Source: Nitrospiraceae bacterium (lineage in GTDB: Bacteria; Nitrospirota; Thermodesulfovibrionia; Thermodesulfovibrionales; UBA9159). From it: a DNA stretch of 6,816 bases. Within the stretch, counting starts at the first letter, position 1, and each line of letters opens with the position of its first letter. The notes under the pieces are model-generated. The model searched no databases. It saw nothing but the letters and a program-made list of their open reading frames with translations, and had not been told where the DNA came from. Below are positions 4,780 through 6,489 of this stretch, one piece after another. The stretch lies in the NCBI GenBank assembly GCA_003453735.1, contig DMNE01000214.1, positions 1 to 6,816 of the forward strand, written 5' to 3'. Made by a program: the position numbers and the translations under genes.

Positions 4780-6489
4780 CTATGTCACCTTGACTTTTAA
4801 TATCTCGTCCCGGTTCGAGTCAACAACATGGATGGCACAGGCCATACATGGGTCGAAGGAATGGATGGTCCTCAGTATCTCCAAAGGCTTATTCGGGTCT
4901 TTCAGCGGTGTGCCAATTAACGCGGCCTCGTACGGACCGGGGTTACCTTTCGCATCTCTCGGTGAAGAGTTCCATCCACCAGGGACAACGCACTGGTAGT
5001 TAGCAACCTTACCGTCATTAATCACTACCCAGTGGCAGAGCGAACCACGAGGGGCCTCATGAAAGCCGTAACCCTTAGCCTCTTTCGGCCAGGTCGACGG
5101 ATCCCACTTATCGCCGTTGTGGATTCGGAGGTCTCCGCTCTTAATTTTCGCATCGAGTTCATCAATCCAGACAGGGAGCATTTCCGCGGTGACCAGCGTC
5201 TCGATACCCCTCGCCGCGGTCCGGCCGAGGGTAGAGAAGAGCGCGGCGGGTCCAACACCCAGCTTCTGCAATACCATATTTACGACTTCCTTTATCCGTT
5301 TATGTCCAGAAGCATAGGCAATGAGCATCCTCGAAAGCGGACCAACCTCTGTCGAAAGGCCATCGTAGCGAATTCCCTTGACCCAACTGTATTTCTTGTC
5401 AGTATCAAGGAATTCATAGGGAGGTTTCTGGCCGGTATAGTTAGGATTGGTTTCTCCGTCCCATGGATGGAGCGCCTTGTCATCTCCACCACTATATTTA
5501 TACCATGCATGCGCTGCGTCCTCGGTGACCTTCATTTGGTCAACCGGTTCAACCTTACCCAGATTCTTGTTCCTGATGAACCCCGCTGGCAACCAGGTAT
5601 TTGTTGTATTGCTGACATCATCATTCTGGAACTCGCCGTAGGAGAGGTAATTACCGACTCCTCCTCCTATGGCTGCCCAATCTTTATAGAAGGACGCGAT
5701 AGCGAGGAGATCAGGGATGTAGACCTTTTCAACAAACGAAAGGGCTTTCTTCGAGAGCTGATTCATAAGAGCGATACTGCCTGCATTCAAGGCGTTCTGG
5801 CTGCTCGGGTCAATTGGAATGGCCATGCCTCCTACAAGCCAGGTCTGGGGGTGGGGGTTTTTTGCGCCGAGCATTGCCTGCATCCTTATGACGTCCTTCT
5901 GCCAGTCCAGCGCCTCAAGGTAATGGGCTACCGCCATCAGGTTGGCTTCGGGTGGGAGCTTATATTCCGGATGCCCCCAGTAGCCACTCGCAAAGAGGCC
6001 AAGCTGACCGCTCTCCACAAGAGTCTTCACCTTGTCCTGTACCGCCTTGAAATAGGTCGGTGAGGAGTTCGGCCAGTCCGAGATAGACTGAGCAAGTGAT
6101 GCTGTCTTTGCAGGGTCAGCCTTGAGGGCACTGACGACATCGACCCAGTCCAGGGCATGGAGGGCGTAGAAATGTATCACATGATCCTGAACGTACTGAA
6201 TACCATTGATAAGATTCCTGATTATCCGAGCATTATCAGGGATAACTGCGCCTACTGCATTTTCCACGGCTCTCACGGAGCTTTGTGCGTGGACCGTTGT
6301 TCAGACCCCTCATATTCGAGAGGCAAAAGCCCAGCACTCCCTCGGGTCCCTCCCTTTGAGGATAAGCTCGATGCCTCTCCACATGGTGCCTGATGACCAG
6401 GCTTCCTTAACCTTGCCACCATCCACCTGAGCTTCGATCCTCAGATGCCCTTCAATCCTGGTGATAGGGTCAATCACTATTTTTGCCAT
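4780..6489 (-). CDS. hyaB: [NiFe] hydrogenase large subunit with two in-frame UGA codons (probable Sec60 and Sec63)
   Basis: Catalytic subunit of 569 residues, close to E. coli HyaB along its length. It starts at ATG 6489 (MAKIVIDPITRIEGH, with the proton-gate Glu13 in RIEGH) with an AAGGAGG site 7 bases upstream. The N-terminal Ni-Fe motif, normally RICGVCTTVHA, reads R-I-UGA-G-V-UGA-T-T-V-H-A: both metal-binding cysteines (codons 60 and 63) are UGA and the flanks are intact. The frame is otherwise open to TAG at 4780. Later motifs are normal: HALDWVDV, NPHPQTWLVGG, HPWDGETNPNY, VGPLSR, KWDPSTWP, APRG (Arg481, active-site Arg) and DPCMACAIH (Cys548, Cys551, both TGT). A 15-residue tail follows for protease cleavage. 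Cys52 and Cys485 replace the Ala and Gly of E. coli HyaB. A hairpin after the second UGA resembles a SECIS. Automatic callers would likely start near GTG 6276 and lose the N-terminus. Selenocysteine insertion is inferred, not proven. Confidence 0.9.
6263..6293 (-). promoter_or_regulatory. SECIS-like stem-loop downstream of the UGA pair
   Basis: In the mRNA, UCCACG (6288-6293) pairs with CGUGGA (6263-6268). After a 5'-side bulge CACAAA (6282-6287), GCUC (6278-6281) pairs with GAGC (6269-6272), enclosing the five-base loop CGUGA (6273-6277). The loop begins 24 bases after the second UGA and 33 after the first, both inside the range I know for bacterial SECIS elements (about 16-37). A G in the first two loop bases and a GU pair in the loop also fit SelB recognition. 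All ten pairs are Watson-Crick. The large asymmetric bulge is less typical, and CACG could instead pair with the CGUG of the loop. Confidence 0.65.
6301..6312 (-). other. Paired UGA recoding sites at the Ni-Fe ligand codons
   Basis: UGA at 6310-6312 and UGA at 6301-6303, separated by GGG GUC, replace the two cysteine codons of the CGVC motif. The surrounding codons encode a perfectly conserved stretch on both sides, so there is no frameshift. UGA differs from a Cys codon (UGU, UGC) only in the third base, the usual signature of Cys/Sec exchange. Confidence 0.8.

Follow-up and report, generated by a model that had tools for sequence, protein, structure and literature searches.

A predicted di-selenocysteine active site in [NiFe] hydrogenases of a Nitrospirota class

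A hydrogenase operon with two in-frame UGA codons

The window, by which we mean the whole stretch of 6,816 nucleotides analysed here, contains a hydrogenase operon, and all of its features described below lie on the minus strand. The C-terminal part of the small subunit is found at 6508..6816 and matches PF14720 (65 bits, over the cut-off). Its match to TIGR00391 (91.9 bits) is under the cut-off since only part of the gene is present, and an NN assembly gap at contig positions 6817-6818 lies inside this gene, directly past the end of the window. The small-subunit frame is open in seven of the eight relatives examined, and the remaining one (L014) yielded none. The large subunit (4780..6489) is followed by a b-type, HyaC-like cytochrome subunit (4129..4770; TIGR02125, 161.5 bits, over the cut-off), a hydrogenase maturation endopeptidase (3625..4122; TIGR00072, 139.1 bits, over the cut-off) and a HypC-type maturation chaperone (3416..3673; TIGR00074, 73.3 bits, over the cut-off). 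The endopeptidase scores 150.0 bits with the HyaD/HybD model TIGR00140, slightly below the cut-off of 151.8. The operon is adjoined by genes for a partial RNase Y, an AmmeMemoRadiSam protein B and a UbiX-type flavin prenyltransferase (1-1068, 1603-2445 and 2784-3419), and a Cys-rich open reading frame of 80 residues at 2479-2721 has no NCBIfam or Pfam match at an E-value of 0.001.

The large-subunit gene is a single open frame of 569 residues (translated from 6489 to 4780) that ends in TAG, with AAGGAGG 7 bases before its ATG. The frame contains exactly two UGA codons, codon 60 (6310..6312) and codon 63 (6301..6303), which with UGA written as U give the sequence RI-U-GV-U-TTVH. The product scores 771 bits with PF00374, whose cut-off is 25.8, and large subunits of solved [NiFe] hydrogenases align by phmmer to its residues 3-554 or 3-568. 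In three of these alignments, residues 60 and 63 stand opposite the cysteines of RICGVC or RTCGVC, that is, the first and second Cys positions of the RxCGxC motif. The C-terminal ligand motif (4837..4848) reads DPCMACAIH, with Cys548 and Cys551 both encoded by TGT, and 15 more residues follow it. The extension after DPCxxCxxH is accompanied by the HypC and protease genes within the window. The C-terminal ligand pair is thus cysteine and the N-terminal pair UGA, and the four ligands of a [NiFe] large subunit are complete only if selenocysteine (Sec) is accepted in place of Cys; an in-frame UGA opposite the Cys of homologues, as seen here, is expected of a bacterial selenoprotein gene. By homology to [NiFe] hydrogenase structures, we take residue 60 to be a terminal Ni ligand and residue 63 to be a bridging Ni-Fe ligand.

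An earlier note, made from the letters of this DNA, had read the motif as R-I-UGA-G-V-UGA at 6301-6312, placed the two codons at the N-terminal ligand cysteines, found the sequence on both sides to be in one frame behind a strong ribosome site, and described the C-terminal cysteines as normal. Retranslation of codons 60 and 63 and the alignments above bear out these coordinates and assignments.

Among the closest known systems are group 1 [NiFe] hydrogenases (E. coli Hyd-1 and Hyd-2, and the solved structures 3myr and 4c3o), to which the protein aligns over nearly its full length and with which it shares the protease site at the C-terminus as well as genes for cytochrome b, HypC and the protease. 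These relatives have Cys at every one of the four ligands, whereas half of the ligand codons are UGA here. With the [NiFeSe] hydrogenase HysA of sulfate reducers (NF045518) and the archaeal FrhA and VhuU, the protein would share Sec as a Ni ligand. In the known [NiFeSe] enzymes, however, Sec is in the C-terminal motif, whereas here the UGA codons are N-terminal and Cys548 is encoded by TGT. The score with the HysA model is 383 bits, against a cut-off of 780.

Distribution and selection of the UGA pair

Below, UU denotes genes with UGA at both N-terminal ligand codons, CU those with UGA at the second only, UC those with UGA at the first only, and CC those with neither. A scan of one genome per species over 84,980 species returned 101 related stretches, from which the best 80 were kept. 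Among these best 80 of 101 stretches, which form a collection separate from the one described next, nine have TGA/TGA, three have TGC/TGA, and two (L058 and L087) gave no motif match; by title, the nine TGA/TGA loci come from Nitrospirae/Nitrospirota metagenome-assembled genomes with different sample names. Within the window's own genome, family and order, a UU gene was found at the motif level in 46 of 101 genomes, the own genome counted. Two of these 46 (G052 and G085) were checked on fragments, and another (G017) is a single-contig genome. Beyond this order, once loci had been opened, a UU hydrogenase was established in 18 of 33 further genomes that belong to the same class but to another order. 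CU hydrogenases were found in six genomes of another class (family f25) and in one of the same class (G377). Wherever the C-terminus of a UU gene was read, both C-terminal ligands are Cys.

At the level of the phylum, the broad pattern R-I/F-TGH-G-V-TGA matched 96 of 395 genomes, compared with three for a reversed control. The matches amount to 101 rows, 30 of which are genes already met in the two earlier scans. Thirty rows were opened and comprised 20 hydrogenases and 10 chance matches, and 41 more comprised 38 hydrogenases (including L285, which has N in its upstream part) and three chance matches. For the quantitative comparisons below, we used a script-extracted set of 139 genes (54 UU, 12 CU, 73 CC and no UC), or 46 UU, 12 CU and 72 CC genes when identical DNA is removed. 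The 54 UU genes include the window gene three times, and the set leaves out shortened loci (among them the UU loci L020, L137, L138 and L154) and the genes from the phylum-wide pattern scan. The interpretation of the earlier note is supported by this distribution, with two amendments: the feature is not unique to this genome and is spread across a Nitrospirota class, and several lineages hold relatives in which UGA stands at the bridging position alone.

Several related loci were observed along the way. G036 contains a more distant hydrogenase with RI-UGA-AV-UGA (L151, at G036:C20) and has no SelB over the cut-off, and two further distant hydrogenases (L152 and L153) have RICGV-UGA. A quite different hydrogenase type (L253 in G265:C63 and L255 in G277:C116) combines RICGV-UGA-PEAHH with DPCLSC, so that UGA at the bridging position is found beyond this hydrogenase group too. 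In the small subunits beside UU genes (for example L008, L011 and L012), the proximal-cluster motif CxGC lacks its second Cys: the motif was seen in 45 of 51 loci, duplicates counted, and each of these 45 has either Asp (24) or Asn (21) at this place. Asn is also present in five Cys-type loci (L017-L019, L023 and L067) and Asp in L129 and the CU locus L124, and 45 other Cys-type loci have Cys.

The spread of the codon pair bears directly on whether it could be a sequencing or assembly artefact. The window does come from a fragmented assembly of 540 contigs with the NN gap just past its end, but the same pair recurs in the 46 genomes and nine of the best 80 loci counted above, and the six close gene pairs that we compared are 78-83% identical in nucleotides. 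The earlier note had argued that errors hitting just these codons would be very unlikely; we agree and regard the chance of an artefact as negligible. A second explanation is that UGA is a true stop, so that the gene has either decayed or is restarted downstream at a GTG in the sequence VRAVEN, giving a truncated protein without the N-terminal ligands. Database proteins seem to match such products: among the best 120 of 8,000 scored proteins, 72, the window's own included, lack the motif and are 491-504 residues long, and five of these that were inspected start at or past VRAVEN. A gene caller that treats UGA as a stop gives exactly such truncated frames, though, and the pattern of selection argues against decay or restart. 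Between the window gene and six close relatives, dN/dS is 0.039-0.068 upstream of the UGA codons and 0.025-0.053 downstream (four pairs with a defined dS; the remaining two pairs are saturated). In the 46 distinct UU genes, the region bounded by the N-terminal DPxT motif and the C-terminal ligand motif adds up to 25,204 codons. It holds 92 in-frame stops, two in each gene and without exception TGA, and these match the ligand cysteines exactly. The kind of pseudogene decay in homologues that the earlier note had named as evidence against its reading is absent from these relatives, which have the same UGA pair, no other stops and purifying selection on both sides. We therefore consider termination at these codons extremely unlikely. 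A genome-wide reassignment of UGA is ruled out, as TGA also ends 14 of 44 UU genes; for the same reason, UGA must be read by context in these genomes, as Sec is.

The other 48 of the best 120 database proteins are full-length, have Cys at both positions and are at most 75% identical to the window protein, the all-Cys homologues being 69-75% identical. When 45 UU genes were compared with 56 close Cys homologues, no residue other than the two ligands was found in more than 85% of the UU genes and less than 25% of the Cys homologues.

Selenocysteine machinery and a candidate RNA element

The genes selA, selB, selC and selD, which the earlier note had proposed to look for, are all present in the same genome. 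SelB (366 bits) and SelA (609 bits) are encoded on one contig, and both are over the cut-off, as is a SelD (295 bits) with one in-frame TGA; a second SelD-family gene has no TGA. The tRNA-Sec is 94 nucleotides long and scores 70.9 bits, with anticodon UCA and G73. SelB passes the cut-off in all UU genomes of the 46 except G085, and in 11 of the 12 genomes behind the first loci; the twelfth, L016, matches partially with 229.9 bits. The co-occurrence of SelB and UU is uninformative, because SelB is over the cut-off in 93 of the 101 genomes whatever the hydrogenase; it is also absent at this cut-off from the CU genome G073. Among the part of the candidates that was scored, a tRNA-Sec-family match of at least 65 bits was found in 40 of the 46 UU genomes and not in the other six (G037, G041, G050, G055, G059 and G065). 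Since the family cut-off is not specific alone (5 of 14 control genomes pass), anticodons were read in some of these genomes.

Reading anticodons matters for one further alternative, in which a SelC-like tRNA-Cys together with SelB inserts Cys at the UGA codons and the enzyme is an ordinary four-sulfur [NiFe] hydrogenase. The idea has some basis: a selC* tRNA-Cys has been described in Nitrospirae, with a UCA anticodon in Desulfobacterales, in the parts of the source available to us (PMC7609411), and the window's own genome does contain a SelC-like tRNA-Cys (G000:C396). All 13 SelC-like tRNA-Cys compared, from the own genome and 12 relatives, have the anticodon GCA, which reads UGC and UGU, and U73, as opposed to UCA and G73 in all seven tRNA-Sec compared; 12 of the tRNA-Cys were read by script and L243 by eye. 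No UCA tRNA besides tRNA-Sec was called by ARAGORN, which missed some matches, among 31 loci of the own genome, an assembly that is 88% complete. Insertion of Cys at these codons is, in our view, very unlikely.

The SelC-like tRNA-Cys genes (G000:C396:8042-8133, L163, in the own genome, and L232-L241, L243 and L251 in the 12 relatives) have a long variable arm. The one in the own genome may be its sole tRNA-Cys, as no other was called in the 31 loci of the 88%-complete assembly. In four genomes (G095:C62, G045:C20, G054:C15 and G087:C35), a SelB-family gene stands next to a weaker tRNA-Sec-family match, which in G095 is a SelC-like tRNA-Cys. It looks like a second SelB is paired with this weaker-matching tRNA.

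We compared synonymous codon identity in each column with the expectation from each gene's codon use. Directly after the second UGA, codons 64-75 (6265..6300), a predicted SECIS region, show suppressed synonymous change: in the UU genes, the excess of synonymous identity over codons +1 to +12 is 0.392 compared with a gene mean of 0.066, and none of 20,000 permutations was as high. The same stretch gives 0.232 in CU genes (p 0.0004) and 0.043 in CC genes (p 0.34). Across the whole gene, the eight strongest UU windows cluster at the start of this stretch (window starts -2 to +6). Relatedness was controlled with 36 CC genes that form a cluster (mean identity 73%), in which the excess is 0.089 (p 0.23), and with two CC sets of six genes, one of them from the same order (0.075 and 0.112; p 0.36 and 0.21); three UU subsamples of 36 genes (79% identity) give 0.39-0.42. 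Pairwise dS within +1 to +12 is 0-0.11 in five of six close pairs and 0.93 in L009. A synonymous band like this one is the kind of trace that an RNA element leaves within a coding sequence, and we take it as strong evidence that one lies after the UGA codons.

The band contains a candidate SECIS hairpin, GCTC-CGTGA-GAGC (6269..6281), whose apical loop lies 32 nucleotides past UGA60 and 23 nucleotides past UGA63. The hairpin fits the loop and spacing rules of the published bSECIS model, which, in the parts of the source available to us, requires a spacing of 16-37 nucleotides and a G at loop position one or two (PMC13188914). After the second ligand codon, the size, loop and spacing rules are satisfied in 45 of 46 UU, 12 of 12 CU and 65 of 72 CC genes. 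The shape lends weak support to a SECIS because the rules also fit most cysteine genes, and we dropped it as an argument. The minimum-free-energy test was dropped as well: the candidate hairpin alone has -3.2 kcal/mol, which is not unusual, and compared with codon-shuffled sequences the hairpin region of UU genes has no excess stability (mean z -0.27 for UU, -0.30 for CC and -2.21 for CU). The top-scoring hairpin differs among UU genes, with CAGCUC-CGUGA-GAGCUG and variants in many and other hairpins in the remainder, and a second CU clade has ACGCACUG-GCUU-CAGUGCGU. With six pairs in the candidate stem and 45 UU genes, 225 of the 270 possible pairings are formed, compared with 96-148 when the 3' side is slid by 1-3 positions. 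Covariation says little, because the best conserved stem pairs hardly vary (three of the six); the second outer pair forms in 21 of the 45 genes. A scan of 6150-6500 with Rfam gave nothing at the cut-off near the UGA codons.

Origin and meaning of the selenium ligands

Taken together, the conserved UGA pair, the purifying selection on either side of it, the presence of the machinery genes and the downstream synonymous band make it very likely that both N-terminal UGA codons are read as Sec through SelA, SelB, SelD and tRNA-Sec, and that the product is a natural [NiFe] hydrogenase with two selenocysteines, one of which places selenium at a terminal and the other at a bridging position. A short hairpin about 32 nucleotides past the first and 23 nucleotides past the second UGA would recruit SelB, and this one hairpin would serve both codons, nine bases apart. 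HypC and the hydrogenase protease would then mature the protein, the latter acting after the intact C-terminal DPCxxCxxH. The resulting Ni-Fe centre would be held by selenium at residues 60 (terminal) and 63 (bridging) and by sulfur at Cys548 and Cys551. Judging from the gene neighbours, the enzyme with its small subunit and cytochrome b probably takes up H2 and feeds the electrons into the quinone pool of the membrane. If the analogy with [NiFeSe] enzymes holds, selenium could make proton transfer easier and offer protection from oxidation.

The order in which the two positions were acquired was approached with a quick maximum-likelihood tree of 94 of 130 distinct rows, with the ligand columns masked and without bootstrap. 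The tree needs three changes for UU, two of them forced by well-supported branches, and seven for CU. One UU gene (L140, in G074) is nested within a clade of CU genes that is remote from the main UU clade (SH-aLRT 99 for the group and 89 for the branch below), which likely represents a second origin of UU, with gain and loss not separable by the count of changes alone. UC is absent from the 139 extracted genes, and six matches to the UC pattern in 395 genomes are all outside a hydrogenase frame. Given that CU is present in several lineages, that UU probably had two origins and that UC was not observed, the bridging Sec was probably acquired before the terminal one, which is the simplest order on these sequences.

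Selenium in hydrogenases is otherwise described at another place. [NiFeSe] enzymes have Sec in the C-terminal motif, at the position equivalent to Cys546 of Hyd-2 (PMC11212049). An inventory from 2026, which covers 119 families and subfamilies of prokaryotic selenoproteins, gives hydrogenase alpha subunits with one Sec, in UxxC, and two Sec among hydrogenases only in the delta subunit (PMC13188914). Each ligand Cys of E. coli Hyd-2 (61, 64, 546 and 549) has been exchanged singly for Sec, and all four variants were matured and active, with activity lower than native (PMC11212049). These engineered variants include Sec at the matching N-terminal positions, singly and man-made, whereas the substitution predicted here is natural and double. 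Two Sec three residues apart are also found in UxxU selenoproteins (Prx-like, the FmdB family and the metal-binding NF041115; PMC13188914), which are unrelated proteins without a Ni-Fe site. The parts of these two sources available to us are the basis of these statements. In the portions of the open-access literature that we consulted, one terminal ligand is the sole place where selenium has been recorded in a natural hydrogenase Ni-Fe site, no naturally occurring N-terminal Sec is described for a [NiFe] large subunit, and papers on Nitrospirota, selenoproteins and hydrogenases hold nothing on an N-terminal di-Sec; subscription papers or preprints could hold such a description.

We consider it likely, with good confidence, that these genes form a natural [NiFeSe2] class that is widespread in a Nitrospirota class, apparently evolved twice through the CU form (which also occurs in other phyla), and is hidden in databases as truncated proteins. 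This exposes a blind spot of gene calling: the N-terminal motif is missing from 72 of the best 120 database relatives among the 8,000 scored. If the reading is true, the enzyme has a new metal site, with selenium in the Ni-Fe bridge and at a terminal position other than the one on record. The all-Cys homologues, at 69-75% identity, and the bridging-only relatives would serve as natural controls, and three questions would become testable: why selenium is found at some ligands and not at others, by what means the Hyp proteins insert Ni and Fe at selenolates, and in what way a single downstream element could decode two UGA codons nine bases apart.
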